Below are positions 10,796 through 19,508 of a stretch of DNA of 29,486 bases, piece by piece. The notes under the pieces were generated by a model. The model was not told the DNA's origin and did no database searches. It saw only the letters and a list, made by a program, of their open reading frames with translations. Numbering within the stretch: the first letter of the stretch is position 1; each line of letters begins with the position of its first letter. The translations under genes were made by a program, and so were the position numbers. This stretch comes from a virus, in IMG/VR virus record IMGVR_UViG_3300032242_001301, positions 1 through 29,486 of that record; one strand, 5' to 3'.

Positions 10796-10816
10796 TATTG
10801 ATTAATGGGCCATAAT

Positions 10817-11188
10817 ATGCGAATTAAAGAACTGTGTGAAAGCGTAGGACAAGATCTTGATAGAGATATAGAACATCAAGACAAGCACGGATTGGGCTAC
10901 GATTTAAAAGACGATTTACTATTCTTTATGCATCACGACGATGATGCATATCGCCGTCATACATATCCCGGAATTATGAAAGTTAGAGATCACATGGCTA
11001 ACGACAAGGATACTGATATGGCTTTATTCGGAGATGCTGTTAAAGAAGCATACGAAAAATATCGTAATAAATTCCACGAGATTCGTGCATTGCCAGAAAA
11101 ACTTGACGAAGAAACATTAAGCGAAATCTGCGCCCACATGCATGAACACGAAACAAAAAAGATCCAAGACGGTCATTACGAGGACTAA
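10817..11188 (+). CDS. Late phage protein with CTS-like start (MRIKELCE)
   Basis: This protein is 123 aa from this ATG; an in-frame ATG lies 12 nt upstream at 10805, and neither has a strong ribosome site. I prefer 10817 because the resulting start, MRIKELCESVG, matches the M-(K/R)-x-x-E-(F/L) pattern at the heads of neighbouring late proteins. The rest is acidic and His-rich (LFFMHHDDDAYRRHTYPG, EICAHMHEHETKK) and probably alpha-helical. I recognise it only as the type of small conserved protein found in T4-like aquatic phages. If the N-terminal element is a capsid-targeting sequence, this would be an internal head protein cut by the prohead protease at LCE. The function is unknown. Confidence 0.72.
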   Translation: MRIKELCESVGQDLDRDIEHQDKHGLGYDLKDDLLFFMHHDDDAYRRHTYPGIMKVRDHMANDKDTDMALFGDAVKEAYEKYRNKFHEIRALPEKLDEETLSEICAHMHEHETKKIQDGHYED

Positions 11189-11190
11189 TA

Positions 11191-12426
11191 GTGTTACTCC
11201 GTGAATTATTCCTTAAGGAAAATCAAGCAGGGCCGCATCCTACAACAGGTATAGCATTAGGCCGTGCTTTCAATCATCCGGAGCATTTTATTTTATTTTA
11301 CGGACTAACTGGCATCAAAGAAGCTATTGAGCATTTGACAGAAATAGTCGAAGAGCCTAAACAGTTGAGATTTAAATGGGATGGTAATCCTCAGATTTAT
11401 TGGGGACGCGAAAAGAAAAACGGACCGTTAATACTAGCGGGACATAATGGTTGGAGTAAAGGCGGTAGAGGTACCGGTACTACAATAGATGATTTTGCAA
11501 GTCCTAAGGCTATTGAAAATTTTATTATTAATAAAAGTGGTGATCCGCAGACTGAAAAAGAAATTGCAGAACGCCACAGATTCGCCAGCGAGTTCAGTGG
11601 CTTGTATCATATATTTGATGCGGCAACACCTAAAGATTTTGTAGGGTTTGTATATGCCGATGCTTTATTTTTACCTAATACAAAACCTACACCAAATGCT
11701 CAAGGCATCTATACTATGCATCCTAACCCACATAGTAAAACAGAATATCATATAGACTCTAATCCTACAAAAGAAGGTCCGTTAAAATTAGCATCTCGTG
11801 TTCCTGGAGCACAGGCAATGGTAGTAGCACATGGAACTTTTAAATCTTTCGGTGCACCAGATAACGAACAAATTCCAGAAGACGATTTTAGTAAGTTCAA
11901 CGCAACTAAAGGATTAATTGTAGTAAGTCCAATATACAACGATACGGCTCCCGAAGTAGATATGAAAGAAATCAAAGCAGTCAGCGCAGTTGATGGCTAT
12001 ATCGATCAACATGGTGCAAACATACAGAATTTTATAACACATATACCAACCGGTGATAGACAAACGTTCTTTTATAGATTTTTAAATCTGCATAATTCAG
12101 CCAATGATTTTGATACTATTACTCCTCAAATGTTTTATAATTGGATGGCAAGTCCTAAGGATCCTAAAAAGCCAGACAGTCCTCCTATGGTAAGTGTTAA
12201 CAAACAACAACATATTAAAAATACAGATTTAAAATTTAATGCCTTAGCACCAATGTTTCACTTGATGAAAATTATGCGTCGTACACGACATGCTATCAAT
12301 GATAGTATAAACAATGTACAAAAACCAGAGTGCTGGGCAAGTAATCCGGAAGGGTTCGTGCGTTATGCTAGCGGCAAAAAACAGCACGGCCATATTAAAC
12401 TACAAAATGCGGGGTGGAAAGATTGA
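11191..12426 (+). CDS. KxDG ligase-like nucleotidyltransferase (DUF6267-type), CTS-like N-terminus
   Basis: This 411 aa protein starts at GTG with GAGG 7 nt upstream. It reads like the phage DUF6267 family, and I see marks of the covalent nucleotidyltransferase (DNA/RNA ligase, capping enzyme) fold. Motif I is FKWDGNP, with K62 as the candidate AMP-accepting lysine; GFVYADALF (152-160) is at the place of motif III; PEGFV (386-390) looks like motif IV, and HIKLQNAGW (401-409, K403) like motif V. The N-terminus MLLRELFLKE resembles the T4 capsid-targeting sequence with an LKE cleavage site. It overlaps the next gene, a HxGH nucleotidyltransferase. The activity is inferred from motifs only, and the long stretch between the motifs is unusual. 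Confidence 0.65.
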   Translation: MLLRELFLKENQAGPHPTTGIALGRAFNHPEHFILFYGLTGIKEAIEHLTEIVEEPKQLRFKWDGNPQIYWGREKKNGPLILAGHNGWSKGGRGTGTTIDDFASPKAIENFIINKSGDPQTEKEIAERHRFASEFSGLYHIFDAATPKDFVGFVYADALFLPNTKPTPNAQGIYTMHPNPHSKTEYHIDSNPTKEGPLKLASRVPGAQAMVVAHGTFKSFGAPDNEQIPEDDFSKFNATKGLIVVSPIYNDTAPEVDMKEIKAVSAVDGYIDQHGANIQNFITHIPTGDRQTFFYRFLNLHNSANDFDTITPQMFYNWMASPKDPKKPDSPPMVSVNKQQHIKNTDLKFNALAPMFHLMKIMRRTRHAINDSINNVQKPECWASNPEGFVRYASGKKQHGHIKLQNAGWKD

Positions 12427-13877
12427 GTCAAGTAGCAATTATATTCGGGCGATTTAATCCGCCACACAAGGGACATAAAGTTGCATGGAAATGTGCGGCT
12501 ACGATTCCACATTGGTTCGTAGGTACTAACGAAACAACAGTTGGGCCAACCGATCCGTTACCATTTCATATTAAAGAAAAAGCCATGCTGGCAATTTATC
12601 CTGAGATTAAAGGACATTTAATTACACAGCAAAGTTGGTTTACAATGGCATCAGCAATGTATGAACATTATGGTGAAGTTGAACTAATATGTGTAACTGA
12701 TGAAGCATGGGTAGTTCCAGGATTATTAAAATCTAACGGCAGAGAAGATCGCCACGGATATTATAAATTTTCTAATATCAGGTTATTTCATAAAGATGTC
12801 GGAGCCGCTAAGGCAGCTTTGCGTAAAGGTAAGGCAAGCGATTTACGTGCCGCAGTTATGCAAGGCGATCGTGCAAAGTTTTCAGAAGTTGCAGGCGTAC
12901 CAGCAGATACTATGGTTGCTGGGCATCCATTTTTTGATTTAGTAGCGCATTATTTAAAACCGTACGGTGCAAAAGCTGAAAAAGCAAATGCAAAGAAAAT
13001 TGCAACCGCAGAACCGGTAAATAAAGAAGAACCACAGGAACCAGTTATGAAACAAGGACCAGCAAAAGAACTAGCTGAATCTATGCATCGTCGCGATGCA
13101 TACCAACGAGACCAAGATGCTGCCGAATACGGTATGCATGGAGAACATCATAGAGATTTCAAACGTCAAGAAATGGAACACGAGCTTGGTCATGAAACAA
13201 ACAACTATGCTGTTAGCATCGATGGCAGACCGTGGAAAGTATTCGGTTCACGCCAAGAAGCCAATCGTGTGTCACTTAGCATAGAACGTAAGTATCCAAC
13301 TAAGAAAATTAAGGTACACGCAACCGGTGCACCAGTGAGTGAAGGCAAAACTGTAAAAGCCGAAGCTCCTAAACCACGTAACTTTGTTGCTAAGAACGCA
13401 ATTAATACAGGTGCAGGCGCACATAAAGATAAAAAGAAAGCTGCCAAACAAGGCGATACAAAGCATAAAAACAAGTTAGAATTTGCAGAAGGACGTTTGA
13501 GTTCTAGTTTAAACACAATGTTTGAAGAAAAATTCCGTGCTAGTTTAAAAGAAGCAGTATTACGTGCAGACACACAGTACGCAATGCCTAATGTACGTAT
13601 TCACCCAGACTTAGATAATTCTAGTCCATATAAAGCATATCGCTACGGTGTTGCAATGGCTGGTCAGCCAACACAAGATTTTGATCCTAATGGTCCTGTT
13701 GGACAAAAGATGATTACTGTTGGTTATACAGAAGCAGATGACAACATTGTTCGTGCAACTGATAAAGTTATGAAATCTAAAAGCAAGTCTATTACAAGCA
13801 AAGGTAGCAAAGAGTTACCAGATACGTATACAGCTAGTCCGATCGCTAAACGTAAACCTAATCAATACGGTGTATAA
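12414..13877 (+). CDS. HxGH nucleotidyltransferase fused to virion-type C-terminal domains
   Basis: This 487 aa protein has an N-terminal adenylyl/cytidylyltransferase-like domain (about 1-190): VAIIFGRFNPPHKGHK contains the HxGH motif at 18-21, and ASDLRAAVMQGDRAKF resembles the (S/T)xxxR motif of these enzymes. NMN adenylyltransferase is one candidate activity; the substrate cannot be read. A Glu/Lys-rich linker follows, then a small domain around 265-305 (VSIDGRPWKVFGS...ANRVSLSIERKYP), and a C-terminal domain (about 390-487) shared with the 14191 protein and ending KRKPNQYGV. The start is GTG 12414; TTG 12423, overlapping the previous stop as TTGA, is equally possible. Late-cassette position suggests a virion-associated enzyme. 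Confidence 0.72.
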   Translation: MERLSQVAIIFGRFNPPHKGHKVAWKCAATIPHWFVGTNETTVGPTDPLPFHIKEKAMLAIYPEIKGHLITQQSWFTMASAMYEHYGEVELICVTDEAWVVPGLLKSNGREDRHGYYKFSNIRLFHKDVGAAKAALRKGKASDLRAAVMQGDRAKFSEVAGVPADTMVAGHPFFDLVAHYLKPYGAKAEKANAKKIATAEPVNKEEPQEPVMKQGPAKELAESMHRRDAYQRDQDAAEYGMHGEHHRDFKRQEMEHELGHETNNYAVSIDGRPWKVFGSRQEANRVSLSIERKYPTKKIKVHATGAPVSEGKTVKAEAPKPRNFVAKNAINTGAGAHKDKKKAAKQGDTKHKNKLEFAEGRLSSSLNTMFEEKFRASLKEAVLRADTQYAMPNVRIHPDLDNSSPYKAYRYGVAMAGQPTQDFDPNGPVGQKMITVGYTEADDNIVRATDKVMKSKSKSITSKGSKELPDTYTASPIAKRKPNQYGV

Positions 13878-14194
13878 TGAGACAGTATAGAATCACTAGC
13901 CAAGATATAAATCAATACGGTCCCGATGACTGCTATCTTGCGCCGAATGATCCTATACACGAAATGAAAGCTATTGCTCACTTGGGTGGACTAGGTGCAG
14001 ATGCAAGATTACATAAATTACGTGCAGAACAAGGTAGTAACATAAGTGTTACAGGCACAGAAAAAGGCCGTATTCAACGCGAACAAAACATCAAACCCGG
14101 AACCCAAGAATGGTTCCAACTGTGGTTCAGTCTTCCTAAGTTTATGGACGGTGAACGAGCAGTGGGGCCAGGATCCAGAGGAATAAGAAAATGA
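13877..14194 (+). CDS. Small conserved late phage protein, 105 aa
   Basis: This is a soluble 105 aa protein with no membrane segment. The recognisable phrases are INQYGPDDCYLAPNDPIHEMK near the start, HLGGLGADARLHKLR in the middle and NIKPGTQEWFQLWFSLPKF near the end. Such phrases occur in small conserved proteins of T4-like aquatic phages, but no function is known to me. The start overlaps the preceding stop as TAATG and the end overlaps the next start as ATGA, so it is translated as part of the chain. It lies between two genes that share a C-terminal domain, which suggests that it belongs to the same complex. Confidence 0.72.
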   Translation: MRQYRITSQDINQYGPDDCYLAPNDPIHEMKAIAHLGGLGADARLHKLRAEQGSNISVTGTEKGRIQREQNIKPGTQEWFQLWFSLPKFMDGERAVGPGSRGIRK

Positions 14195-14625
14195 GATTAA
14201 GAGAATTTTTCACTAAACTAAACGAAGACAGCGGAGTTGAGTCGGCCACCGATGAAGTTCAGGGCACGTCTACACAAGGCGATAAAAAACAACGTAGTGG
14301 CCGCGGTAAAGTACACGACCATCATTCCAGTGCTATTAAAGGCTTGCAAACTATTCCAGACTGGCCGGGCCAGTACTATAACATGTATCGTATGGGTGTG
14401 CATATGGCAGGGAGCCCAGAAAATCCAAGCGATGATCATGGAGCATTTTCAAACGAAATGGTATTTACTACCTATACTGATATCGAACAAGATATGATTA
14501 ATCATAGTGCTAAACAGCTAGGTGTTAAACTTAAAGCCCTAAGTAGCAATAAAAGTAGTGAGCCAGAAGAAACAAATGTACAAAGTCCGGTTGCAAAACG
14601 CCGTCCTAACCAGTACGGAGTGTAA
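14191..14625 (+). CDS. Late protein with CTS-like start and duplicated C-terminal domain
   Basis: This 144 aa protein begins MRLREFFTKLNE, which fits the pattern of a T4-type capsid-targeting sequence with a possible prohead-protease site at LNE. Residues about 15-50 are polar and likely disordered. Residues about 62-144 match the C-terminal domain of the 12414 protein: shared are YR-GV-MAG-P, a central YT, and the ending SP-AKR-PNQYGV. This is therefore a stand-alone copy of the domain fused there to a nucleotidyltransferase. It overlaps the previous gene by ATGA, and the next gene starts 2 nt after its stop. It is probably an internal head or assembly protein; the function is not known. Confidence 0.7.
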   Translation: MRLREFFTKLNEDSGVESATDEVQGTSTQGDKKQRSGRGKVHDHHSSAIKGLQTIPDWPGQYYNMYRMGVHMAGSPENPSDDHGAFSNEMVFTTYTDIEQDMINHSAKQLGVKLKALSSNKSSEPEETNVQSPVAKRRPNQYGV

Positions 14626-15974: not shown

Positions 15975-16679
15975 ATGGACATGAAACGCATTTTACAGGC
16001 AATGGACGATGTTGCCACTAAGCCTGTAGAAGGCGGTAATGACATGAAGAAATTTCTTCAAGTTGTTACTGAAGGAGCCAACCCGCATAAAGTTGCATTG
16101 CCAGTACAAATGGCCATGCAACATTATTCAGAAGTAAAAACGGCCGCTCCTAAACCCATCAAAGAAGTTAAAAAATCAGCGATGTCTAGTCTGTTACAAA
16201 AATATGTAGTAGACGCTGAAGAAGAAATCTTAGAAGACAACGCTATACGCAAAGAAATTATTAGCGAACAAGCCCGTCGCATTGCAGATCGCGTACTTGC
16301 AAAAGAATCTCGTGTCGATGAACTTAGTAATCGTGTATTAGGCAATTATAAAAAAGCTGCCGGGGCTGATGCTAAGGCCGCTGACAAAGCTGGAGATTTT
16401 AAACGTGCTGACAAACGTTTTAAAGGTATTGTTAGTGCTACTAAAAAAGAATTTGCCAATGATAAAAAACAAAGTGTATCAGAAGGCATCGATGCAGAAG
16501 GTGGTATGGCTCGTGAACAATTAATTAGCATGGCGCATCATGCATTAGAACTGGCAAAACATCTAGAATCTGATACACAATTAGATGCTTGGGTCCAAAC
16601 AAAAATTGGTCTAGCTAGTGATTATATTCAAACAGTCAGCGACTTTGTTAAATATGGTCATCAGGATGTAAACGATTAA
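15975..16679 (+). CDS. Late helical protein sharing a domain with its neighbour
   Basis: This 234 aa protein lies 4 nt after the previous gene. The N-terminus MDMKRILQAMDD and a second start-like MKKFLQVVTEG at residue 24 resemble the targeting leaders of neighbouring proteins, with VTE as a possible cleavage site. The middle (about 115-165, ELSNRVLGNYKKAAGADAKAAD...KRFKGIVSATKK) is a pattern I have seen in other T4-like aquatic phage proteins of unknown role. Residues 179-234 (MAREQLISMAHHALELAKHL...LDAWVQTKIGLASDYIQTV) align with residues 2-51 of the 14867 protein, with 15 identities in the first 45 positions. It is probably a prohead core or ejected protein. Confidence 0.7.
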   Translation: MDMKRILQAMDDVATKPVEGGNDMKKFLQVVTEGANPHKVALPVQMAMQHYSEVKTAAPKPIKEVKKSAMSSLLQKYVVDAEEEILEDNAIRKEIISEQARRIADRVLAKESRVDELSNRVLGNYKKAAGADAKAADKAGDFKRADKRFKGIVSATKKEFANDKKQSVSEGIDAEGGMAREQLISMAHHALELAKHLESDTQLDAWVQTKIGLASDYIQTVSDFVKYGHQDVND

Positions 16680-16688
16680 GAGAATAAT

Positions 16689-19508
16689 ATGGACTTTAAA
16701 AAATTATTAGAAAACTTGGAAAGAATAGAGAATGAAGCTCTATTAGAACGTTATCATTTAAAAGACGTGGAAGCAACTGCTGACATCGATGATAAAAAAG
16801 AGCGTTATGCCGCATTAGCTAAACTAGCCAAATCAGGCGGTTATGCAGGTATGTTCGATCCGGTAACTGGTAATTTCATCGACACAAATGGTAATGCCGC
16901 TTGGATCGGTGCTTACAAAGCAGAAGTTCAACAACTAGCACAACATCGTTTAATTCCAGCGGCCGCAAGAGAGAAAACTAGTCACTTGCTAGGCTTCATG
17001 GGAATGGATGAAAAAGAAGCAAGTGCTATTCAGAAAGATGTGCAAGCTAGAGAACAAGCTATTGAAAAAGCCACAGGGTTTATCAACAAGGCTTTAGAAA
17101 CTTTTAAGACAGCGGCTCCTAAAACAGCTCCAGGAGCAGACACTCCTAAGGTAGATGCACCCAAGGCAGGTGCTAGCGAATCACTAAACAGGGGTCTTGC
17201 AAAGGCCTTAACAGAATCATTTGGTTATAACTTTGAAAATCTACTTGAAAGTATTACACAATCAGATCACAAATATATTAAACAAGTTGTAGCATTAGTT
17301 AAAGATATTAAAAACGATGACGATGTTCCAGAATTTTTAGGCAAATATAATGTATACATCCAACGTAGAGACATTTTAATCGAACAAATTACTAAACTTG
17401 TTGCTAGAATCAAAGCGAAAAAAATCAAAACAGATGTCAAAGAAAGTACAGGCAATACGTTGGGATTGACAGAACGTACATATTTGTATTGGGAAGGCGG
17501 TAATCAGTTACTAGAATTCCATCTTTACTATACACCTAAAGGTGAGTTGATCGAATACAAGTGGACCGATCGTGAAGATAAACCATTTAACGACAATATT
17601 CTACTTGAAACTAAACCAGGTGAGAAACCAAGTTTCTGGCAAAGTATAAGCAATGGCATTAGTGATACCGGACGTGGTGTTGCGGCTGGCGCTACTTTTG
17701 GTTACAATGATAACATTGTAGCAGGCTTAAAATCTTTATTCAAAGGTACTAAGTACGCCGATGAACTACATCGCGAATTTACAATCACTCAAGAAATTAA
17801 AAAACGCAGTCCCCATCTATACATGACTGGCCAGATAATTGGTAATGTTGCGGCTGGGTTCGCAACTTCTGCGCTAGCAGGACCTGCGGCAGGACTTGCA
17901 TTAACAGCGGCACAAGTTGGAGATGCAGTCACAGGAACTAGCGACAAATGGCATGCACAAACTGATTATGAATATCTGCAAAATAAGAAAAATAAACCTG
18001 TAGATCCAAACAAAAAGAAAAAACAAAATCTGGATTCAAAAGGCCACCCGCAAGGTGGAACCGCAGACATGCCAGTAAGTGTGAATCCTAATACTAAAGA
18101 AAAAACTCCTGTCACAGGAACTAATGCAGGCGCAGGCGATCCAGGTGTTTCAAAACTACAATCGGCATTAATCGGCGCTGGGCTTTTACCAAAAGGCAGT
18201 GCTACCGGTGTACCAAACGATGCAACTATCAAAGCTATACATCAATATGCAAAATCTCTTGGTAAAAATGATGCAGAAGCTATTGCCGCATTGATAGGTG
18301 TAGAAGCTAAAGAAGTAGACTCTGGAAAAGACGTTAAAAAAGAAAGTATTGTATATACTAGCATGTCTGAATCCGAGCGCATGGCTTATATGCGTGATAA
18401 ATTATCATTGTTAGAAGCCGGTGAAGTACTAGCGGCCGAAGCACTACCTATGCTTGCTAGATTTGCAGTAGGTGAAGCTGGGTATGCACGTATTTTAGCA
18501 AGACTTGGTATTACCACTGCCGAGGCCGCTGAAAATATTTTAGCACCTTTAGCTAGAGTAAGTACTATTGTAGGCAGGGGCGGAAGTGGCATACGTACAA
18601 TTAAGGTTGCAGGACAAGAATGGACAGAAGTCGGCGGAATGTGGCATACCACCAAAGCTGGCAAAACATATACACAGAGTGCCCAACAACTTGCATCCGA
18701 AGTAAAATTAGAAGCTGAGGTGGCTGCTGGAAGACTACACCCACCAGGAAATACCCCACACACTGCTCCCCGAACTGGTAATGGTTCTAGTACTAGTACT
18801 GCTAACGGTAATGTTAATAACATTAATATTAATATCGGCGGACAACCGGCAACAGTTGCACAAGCCGCAGAAGCACTCGGTGTACCAGCAGCCGAGGCCG
18901 CTACCACTGTAGCAGCCATAACAAGAACTGCCCGCGGTACACAATTCCTAAGAAGAATCATGCTTATGGCTCGCAGAGGTGTGAGAGGGATAAGAAGATT
19001 TACATGGAGCAGAGCGTTTATTGCAACAGCATTAGCGTTAACTGCATACCACTATATGTTTAATGATAACGGTGATCTCGTTCCGGAAGTTGGCACCGGC
19101 GACGAACCAGAAGTTACTCCAGTTACTCCCGTTACTCCAGTTACTCCCGTTACTCCAGTTACTCCAGTTACTCCAACTCCGCCAACTCCAGTTACCCCAG
19201 TTACGCCAGCTGTAGACGAGGACCTTGAGGAACTTAAACAACTAGTTAAACAATACTTTGATGCATTCCCAGCTGATCCTTTAGATCCAGCATTGGCGGC
19301 CGATCTTGAAAAATTAATTGGTAAACTACCAGCAGTAGAAGTAGGAACCGGCGATCAGCCAGCAAGTGGTCAAACTGTAAATGCTAGCAAAACGCCTGCG
19401 TGGATGAAAGGCGATGACGTTGATGTATCTAAACTAAAATCTTTAGACGCCCAGGGTAAAGTTAACCCAAGTATGGGTACTAATCTAGCAGATAGAAAAA
19501 TCCAGTAA
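16689..19508 (+). CDS. 939 aa multidomain virion/ejection protein candidate
   Basis: This is the largest protein in the window. It starts MDFKKLLENLERIENEALLE, again like a capsid-targeting leader (LLE). Residues about 1-190 are helical. Residues about 379-413 form a hydrophobic Ala/Gly segment (IIGNVAAGFATSALAGPAAGLAL). Around 480-530, VSKLQSALIGAGLLPKG...NDATIKAIHQYAKSLG resembles a peptidoglycan-binding type 1 domain. A basic stretch is followed by a second hydrophobic segment (FIATALALTAYHYMF, about 777-791), then a PVT-P repeat linker (about 808-841) and a polar tail. Membrane-active segments plus a wall-binding motif fit a protein ejected into the cell envelope with the DNA. A terminator follows. 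The function is inferred; no family name is known to me. Confidence 0.72.
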   Translation: MDFKKLLENLERIENEALLERYHLKDVEATADIDDKKERYAALAKLAKSGGYAGMFDPVTGNFIDTNGNAAWIGAYKAEVQQLAQHRLIPAAAREKTSHLLGFMGMDEKEASAIQKDVQAREQAIEKATGFINKALETFKTAAPKTAPGADTPKVDAPKAGASESLNRGLAKALTESFGYNFENLLESITQSDHKYIKQVVALVKDIKNDDDVPEFLGKYNVYIQRRDILIEQITKLVARIKAKKIKTDVKESTGNTLGLTERTYLYWEGGNQLLEFHLYYTPKGELIEYKWTDREDKPFNDNILLETKPGEKPSFWQSISNGISDTGRGVAAGATFGYNDNIVAGLKSLFKGTKYADELHREFTITQEIKKRSPHLYMTGQIIGNVAAGFATSALAGPAAGLALTAAQVGDAVTGTSDKWHAQTDYEYLQNKKNKPVDPNKKKKQNLDSKGHPQGGTADMPVSVNPNTKEKTPVTGTNAGAGDPGVSKLQSALIGAGLLPKGSATGVPNDATIKAIHQYAKSLGKNDAEAIAALIGVEAKEVDSGKDVKKESIVYTSMSESERMAYMRDKLSLLEAGEVLAAEALPMLARFAVGEAGYARILARLGITTAEAAENILAPLARVSTIVGRGGSGIRTIKVAGQEWTEVGGMWHTTKAGKTYTQSAQQLASEVKLEAEVAAGRLHPPGNTPHTAPRTGNGSSTSTANGNVNNININIGGQPATVAQAAEALGVPAAEAATTVAAITRTARGTQFLRRIMLMARRGVRGIRRFTWSRAFIATALALTAYHYMFNDNGDLVPEVGTGDEPEVTPVTPVTPVTPVTPVTPVTPTPPTPVTPVTPAVDEDLEELKQLVKQYFDAFPADPLDPALAADLEKLIGKLPAVEVGTGDQPASGQTVNASKTPAWMKGDDVDVSKLKSLDAQGKVNPSMGTNLADRKIQ
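19112..19210 (+). repeat. Tandem 9-bp repeat encoding (Pro-Val-Thr)n
   Basis: Units of ACTCCAGTT, with variants CCCGTT and CCAACT, run through the 939 aa gene and encode a PVTPVTP linker. It is a coding microsatellite-like tract, likely to vary in length between relatives by slippage. Confidence 0.85.

Follow-up and report, generated by a model that had tools for sequence, protein, structure and literature searches.

What do two overlapping genes do for a T4-like myovirus in which they lie between virion structural genes and a DNA polymerase gene? The pair was met in a 29,486-base virus record from such a phage (IMG/VR record IMGVR_UViG_3300032242_001301; the whole stretch is called the window below), and the original prediction had read it as a ligase-like gene followed by one for an HxGH nucleotidyltransferase, both carried in the particle. 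Both open reading frames (ORFs) and the motifs named in them were confirmed, and the genes do overlap. The pair is a real, widespread two-enzyme module, for which a virion-delivered ligase is a plausible reading. As the best explanation overall we tentatively favour a ligase-superfamily protein, DUF6267, paired with a cofactor-making HxGH enzyme, the two being head-loaded and injected in many lineages. The two genes are:

11191..12426, + strand: gene 1, the DUF6267 gene; 411 residues, GTG start, Shine-Dalgarno sequence GAGG at 11180-11183
12414..13877, + strand: gene 2 (ORF2), the HxGH nucleotidyltransferase gene; 487 residues counted from GTG 12414

The GTG at 12414 gives a 13-nt overlap with gene 1. 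Judging by the sequence, the true start of ORF2 may be TTG 12423, which shares letters with the stop codon of gene 1 (TTGA) and has the same position in several relatives.

The product of gene 1 matches the Pfam family DUF6267 (PF19782; E 1.6e-9, 38 bits against a curated cut-off of 27), as do 22 of its 22 relatives. Scans of IMG/VR for relatives, with up to 80 kept per scan, returned 40, then 374, then at least 589 encoding stretches. DUF6267 is also present in about 466 annotated phage records, mainly T4-like cyanophages, the other carriers being Methylophilales, Pelagibacter, Vibrio, Stenotrophomonas and Pseudoalteromonas phages. For instance, cyanophage P-HM2_162 is a DUF6267 protein at 1e-124 and overlaps the annotated cytidyltransferase P-HM2_163. 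The window protein gave no tblastn match among 50,697 phages because it is too divergent, and the gap was bridged via metagenomic relatives. Its freshwater clade, at 18-23% identity to the marine reference in alignment A3, stands far from the marine clade yet is homologous to it (hhalign 99.1%, E 1.1e-18). Compared with DUF6267, PHROG 455 and T4-GC71, gene 1 is a full family match standing in the same order with a cytidyltransferase, both domains being held by phrog_455; the window clade differs from marine DUF6267/T4-GC71 in a leader on gene 1 and a long C-terminal region on gene 2. The pair therefore consists of known conserved genes of T4-like cyanophages (T4-GC71 and T4-GC190) and is not a newly discovered gene set. 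The earlier statement that no such system had been described holds for the function, which is undescribed (a full-text literature search for 'DUF6267' returned no paper), but not for the genes, since both are listed, DUF6267 is a Pfam family and PHROG 455 merges the two domains.

Gene 1 carries the following elements, in the order expected of covalent nucleotidyltransferases:

11368..11394, + strand: motif I, RFKWDGNPQ, with the candidate nucleotide-accepting lysine K62; invariant, 245/245
11641..11661, + strand: motif III-like strand VGFVYAD (D157; QGDLL in marine members); D invariant, beta strand in both predicted models
11965..12318, + strand: helical insertion, from a IIIa-like strand to motif IV; helices 259-376 in the window model and 214-342 in that of the marine relative L217
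12346..12360, + strand: motif IV, PEGFV, residues 386-390; E, G and V invariant
12391..12402, + strand: motif V, HIKL (K403), residues 401-404; K invariant

Motifs I, IV and V had been picked out beforehand, with K62 (in FKWDGNP, residues 61-67) as the residue whose loss would count against the idea. All three motifs (K-x-D-G, EGxV and motif V) are kept in 245 of 245 full-length relatives; K62, D64, G65, E387, G388, V390 and K403 are invariant in alignment A1, and their equivalents are so in A3. The latter, with 92 diverse sequences and a mean column identity of 36%, has 20 invariant columns, which read in order H, E, G, G, K-W-D-G-x-P, G, D (in the place of motif III), P, Y, H, N, E-G-x-V, K and a final W. 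When the pattern of motifs I, IV and V is defined loosely, shuffled copies contain it in about 5% of cases and control ORFs in 6%; as three motifs in a single sequence are this common by chance, it is their invariance that carries the argument. The chain ends about 8-30 residues past motif V.

Structure prediction for the window protein (predicted local distance difference test, pLDDT, 85; 22 sequences) and for L217 (pLDDT 90; 92 sequences) gave two confident models. In both, motifs I, III, IIIa, IV and V sit at strands whose order fits that of a ligase core; a helical domain is inserted ahead of motif IV, and motif V is not followed by an OB domain. In a Foldseek search with the window model the top PDB match was T4 RNA ligase 1 (Rnl1, gp63), and the first 15 matches were all DNA or RNA ligases or ligase-containing complexes. 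Profile comparison by hhalign likewise placed Rnl1 as the best ligase, with a score of 23-27 against a null maximum near 22 (E about 0.01-0.04), similar to that of a known superfamily pair, Rnl1 and T4 DNA ligase. In the alignment of DUF6267 with Rnl1, EGYVAVMKDGSHFKIKSDW stands opposite EGFVAIKSGKALKLVDRLEF. DUF6267 and Rnl1, as a member of the superfamily, share KxDG, a motif III-like acidic residue, EGxV and K in this order, the absence of an OB domain, and the spacing from motif IV to motif V (12-16 residues in DUF6267, 13 in Rnl1). They differ in that the helical domain precedes motif IV in DUF6267 and follows motif V in Rnl1, in the conserved HxE[HD] region before motif I of DUF6267, unlike Rnl1, and in a sequence match that stays below significance.

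Several results weigh against a ligase. In the comparison with ligase folds suggested by the original prediction, ligases lead the ranking for the window model, but the matches themselves are weak (E 0.02-0.5, template modelling score about 0.2, none significant alone). The L217 model had no significant match in the PDB and hardly any to ligases, as most of its matches were to the helical bundle. No sequence or fold search reached ligase significance (hhalign E about 0.01 at best), and the motif-like residues were the reader's own pick, G, D and K being often conserved in any case. Against viral models, L217 found its own family first, with a 591-residue fusion of DUF6267 and HxGH from S-PM2 among the matches; T4-type RNA ligases appeared from rank 21 on (E 0.28, not significant). 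PDB sequence searches with single proteins and with both alignments returned no ligase. DUF6267 had no Pfam match to PF01068, the OB-containing ATP-dependent DNA ligase family, and no OB domain with motif VI; no match to PF01653, the NAD+-ligase adenylation domain, and no recognisable Ia domain; and no hidden Markov model match to PF09511 or PF09414, the T4 Rnl1 and Rnl2 families, hhalign being marginal for Rnl1 only. Comparison by hhalign with the T4 Rnl2 and gp30 profiles gave nothing, a result that is not evidence against a ligase, since Rnl2 and gp30 themselves score 13 with such shallow profiles. A fold match of DUF6267 in phage PA5oct was not confirmed by sequence comparison and was dropped.

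It might be argued that KxDG, EGxV and KL have a structural role in an unrelated fold, and that DUF6267 is no nucleotidyltransferase; the lack of a significant sequence or structure match to any ligase speaks for this. Nevertheless, the residues named beforehand all proved invariant and in ligase order, the motif IV-V spacing is like that of Rnl1, and the top fold matches of the window model are ligases, and we consider this reading improbable. Fold and profile searches agree weakly, so that the ligase class is likely and not proven. DUF6267 very probably belongs to the covalent nucleotidyltransferase superfamily; it is likely a divergent ligase-type family with T4 Rnl1 as its nearest relative, and sealing activity is somewhat probable.

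The identification of gene 2 was borne out. ORF2 matches the cytidyltransferase family phrog_3041 (3.6e-11, residues 5-158) and, weakly, CTP_transf_like and cyt_tran_rel, and bears the following elements:

12456..12476, + strand: NPPHKGH motif, ORF2 residues 15-21
12837..12857, + strand: second nucleotide-binding motif, SDLRAAV, ORF2 residues 142-148; aligned with SASKMRAAA of marine members
13629..13874, + strand: C-terminal domain, like the product of 14191-14625 (blastp 39% over 82 residues, E 1e-17)

By its motifs within the family profile match, gene 2 is assigned to the HxGH nucleotidyltransferases, sharing NPPHKGH, the SxLR motif and the PHROG cytidyltransferase match with PF01467 enzymes, NMNAT/NadR and T4-GC190. 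Pfam PF01467 itself stays below cut-off on ORF2 (13.7 against 21) and passes it in several relatives. Among 196 partner sequences, gathered by a pattern requiring PPxxGH, PPHxGH stands in 70 and PPTxGH in 126, and marine members of the T4-GC190 kind read NPPTxGH where the window has NPPHKGH. The extra domains vary as well, with a tail domain in the window and a zeta/AAA_33 kinase or Pol-beta domain elsewhere. About 80 residues are common to the C-terminal domain of ORF2 and 14377-14622, ending SP(I/V)AKR(K/R)PNQYGV.

The two genes proved tightly linked in relatives, and the proposal of a pair thus passed the refuting test that the original prediction had set for it. Of 182 testable loci (those with at least 1.5 kb downstream; the loci are not independent), 163 have an HxGH ORF after DUF6267 and on its strand, two of them as fusions and 138 within 150 nt, and this ORF frequently overlaps DUF6267 by a few nt. 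In 77 of 99 non-redundant loci (80% identity) a neighbour from the HxGH-containing cluster is kept, an upper figure because this cluster chained in some other domains. Further DUF6267-HxGH fusions are found in PHROG 455 and in S-PM2. In the S-PM2 record NC_006820 (L095, 103037-104222), DUF6267 is split over two frames with its second half fused to the cytidyltransferase; the 591-residue fusion protein A0A0M6VVW4 stands in the structure library, and the split reflects either a frameshift from old sequencing or a true difference.

The setting of the pair is less uniform. In the window, virion structural, lysis, DnaJ, peptide deformylase and ClpA genes precede it and a B-family DNA polymerase gene follows; in marine relatives it stands just behind the gp41 replicative helicase. 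Of the 'late, head-type block' proposed earlier, the head-type part thus fits what precedes the pair in the window, but not the polymerase after it or the marine arrangement. In 51 of 99 loci the upstream family has a representative resembling a gp41-type helicase; families like UvsX and MazG are common there too, all of them named from sequence and annotated cyanophage synteny. Such company would suit an ordinary replication ligase at work inside the cell, one that takes the place of the missing T4 gp30 in cyanophages and their relatives and seals Okazaki fragments, the leader being incidental. A review (PMC2984593) reports no g30 homologue in cyanomyoviruses, allows that distant ones may have gone unrecognised and, as a point against this account, holds that the host ligase could substitute. 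A survey of 22 records, 21 with DUF6267 (T4 being without), found none of PF01068, PF01653, PF09414 and PF09511 in ten complete DUF6267-bearing Kyanoviridae genomes (P-HM2, S-PM2, P-SSM2, Melnitz, C48C1, HTVC008M, P-TIM40, S-CAM9, S-RSM4 and P-RSM4). However, six records carry DUF6267 together with an ATP-dependent DNA ligase: S-CRM01 and two freshwater contigs, with PF01068, and Vibrio phages EniLVp02 and 2.275.O and Pseudoalteromonas phage XG4, with T4-type DNA and RNA ligases. Plain gp30 replacement is therefore rejected as the sole account, and it would also leave the HxGH partner, the enriched leaders and the window context unexplained; we regard the replication ligase as unlikely. DUF6267 may fill the ligase gap of the cyanomyoviruses, but not only that. 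Its assignment as a ligase would address this gap, noted in 2010.

Other neighbours point elsewhere. In some marine loci an adenylate kinase and a zeta/AAA_33 kinase are inserted between DUF6267 and HxGH, or a HAD protein lies nearby; adenylate kinase and zeta-toxin/AAA_33 kinase genes are so placed in L228, L246, L254, L258, L269 and L278, several with leader-like starts, and PF00406 was found in both of the adenylate kinases tested. The HxGH protein bears an N-terminal Pol-beta-type nucleotidyltransferase domain in L254:8428-10830, L228:4208-7600 and L242:5046-7262, and is fused to a zeta/AAA_33 kinase in the freshwater L015. By analogy, for instance with T4 PseT, which consists of AAA_33 and HAD, these kinase, HAD and Pol-beta neighbours would be the company expected of end repair, but they are not universal. 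They could be the helpers in an unpackaged RNA-end repair cassette, in which DUF6267 would seal RNA (e.g., tRNA) that host defence has cleaved. DUF6267 being nearest to Rnl1 fits this, as do the helpers of some loci, and phage RNA ligases with Pol-beta partners have been described (PMC7824862). On the other hand, the helpers occur in part of the family only, HxGH enzymes are not known as RNA-end enzymes, and DUF6267 is retained in phages with T4-type RNA ligases; this account appears no likelier than a replication ligase.

The partner itself raises the thought of NAD+ or another small-molecule cofactor, in that an NMNAT-like HxGH enzyme would restore NAD+ depleted by defence while DUF6267 would either adenylylate a helper molecule or consume NAD+, setting nicotinamide mononucleotide (NMN) free for recycling. 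NAD+ salvage by phages is established (PMC9503650), HxGH proteins of relatives weakly match a PHROG nicotinamide-nucleotide adenylyltransferase, and the fusion to a P-loop kinase in some relatives is a NadR-like architecture. Nevertheless, no NMNAT family model reached its cut-off (among the NMN/nicotinate adenylyltransferase models on ORF2, TIGR00125 was below cut-off at domain level and NF000845 gave E 0.13), DUF6267 lacks the PF01653 match and Ia domain of NAD+ ligases, and no phosphoribosyltransferase was recognised by eye in the neighbour clusters inspected. We think such a module distinctly unlikely.

Gene 1 also carries a leader, which the original prediction had likened to capsid-targeting starts:

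11191..11220, + strand: leader MLLRELFLKE, residues 1-10, like a capsid-targeting sequence (CTS); predicted prohead-protease cut after E10

The CTSs of T4 have 10 residues and are cleaved after L/I-x-E (PMC9026906). The likeness was upheld: L8-x-E10 (LKE) of gene 1 sits at the same positions as the CTS processing residues of T4 IPIII, and the MxLxxELF start is like that of T4 Alt (MELITELFDED). Unlike Alt, DUF6267 has no match to an ADP-ribosyltransferase domain. The leader region has pLDDT < 50. Relatives begin with MLLRELFIRE, MRINEFLKEAE, MKFTEYLTEAK or MQDFKDYIVED, and many non-cyanophage DUF6267 members bear a T4-like capsid-targeting leader. L/I-x-E ending at residues 7-13 was found in 191 of 1049 control genes (18%), in 45 of 80 DUF6267 proteins with a leader (56%, p 5e-13 against control genes) and in 33 of 62 HxGH proteins with a leader (53%, p 2e-9), p-values that overstate independence because the sequences are related. 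Adenylate kinases beside DUF6267 and the window gene at 14191 are among the control genes with an equally strong leader, and in some marine loci zeta/AAA_33 kinases, HAD proteins and HxGH proteins fused to a Pol-beta domain also stand by the pair with leaders of a similar kind. Co-occurrence of the leader in the two partners is imperfect: under the strict L/I-x-E rule, 52 clusters divide into 9 with the leader on both proteins, 7 on gene 1 only, 9 on gene 2 only and 27 on neither.

Virion data exist for cyanophages. T4-GC190, the cyanophage HxGH family, was found in S-SM1 virions (PMC3037559), and S-CREM2 virions contained a cytidylyltransferase (PMC10665884). Delivery of the pair in the particle is plausible from the sequences, and one partner has experimental support in other phages. 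Several points count against it. The S-CREM2 detection consists of 3 peptides only, and its authors warn of possible co-purification (PMC10665884); no ORF immediately upstream of the cytidylyltransferase is on that virion list, and the DUF6267 ORF of S-CREM2 is unconfirmed. Strict cyanophages like P-HM2 lack a leader on both proteins, yet the published detections are from cyanophages, so that leader and packaging are not yet tied. In three clusters the HxGH protein alone bears the leader, and the N-terminus of window ORF2 has no obvious one. The S-CRM01 virion was also reported to hold a kinase (PMC10665884). A kinase-like gene with weak Pkinase/APH matches lies two genes downstream of DUF6267 in S-CRM01 (L290, 4667-7132) and may be the gene concerned.

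For catalysis, substrate, packaging of DUF6267, timing and the coupling of the two reactions, we infer the following course for the favoured explanation, that of a head-loaded ligase and its cofactor-making partner. DUF6267 would be a divergent polynucleotide ligase nearest T4 Rnl1 that lacks an OB domain and contains an all-helical insertion. AMP from ATP (or NAD+) would be taken up by K62 and passed on to a 5'-phosphate end, after which the RNA or DNA break would be sealed. The HxGH partner, possibly of the NMN/nicotinate-adenylyltransferase type, would make a nucleotide cofactor, or restore it, in the compartment where DUF6267 works. In many lineages, that of the window among them, a T4-type capsid-targeting leader on one or both proteins would direct loading into the prohead, where the prohead protease would trim it; the proteins would then enter the cell with the DNA and act before phage gene expression. 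If the pair is injected, nucleic-acid or cofactor repair would be added to the short list of activities that phage heads are known to deliver. A broader version, which we hold to be rather unlikely in full, is an injected repair kit of DUF6267 and HxGH, sometimes with adenylate kinase, zeta/AAA_33 kinase, HAD and Pol-beta nucleotidyltransferase, that would mend cut phage DNA or host tRNA early in infection by T4-like phages of marine and freshwater bacteria, and in cyanophages would also supply the seemingly absent DNA ligase of the replisome.

With regard to distribution, a cellular origin of DUF6267 was rejected, as matches in genome collections were mostly contigs of environmental metagenome-assembled genomes, probably phage DNA, and 14 control genomes had no match. 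A DUF6267 gene lies on a 188 kb contig (L341) in the assembly of cultured Nonlabens xiamenensis, possibly a co-sequenced phage, and another, with a PF01068 DNA ligase, on a 383 kb jumbo-sized phage contig (L066).

The window also contains PhoH, structural, lysis, DnaJ (by sequence reading), peptide deformylase, ClpA-like and B-family DNA polymerase genes. Two neighbours of the pair are:

10805..11188, + strand: conserved upstream neighbour with leader-like internal start MRIKELCES; in 22 of 99 non-redundant loci the pair is preceded by a similar family
14191..14625, + strand: neighbour with the same leader kind (MRLREFFTKLNE) plus the ORF2 tail domain

CTS-like starts are thus seen at 10805-11188 and 14191-14625, and also at 15975-16679 (MDMKRILQAM) and 16689-19508 (MDFKKLLENL), which suggests a putative block of head-targeted proteins around the pair.

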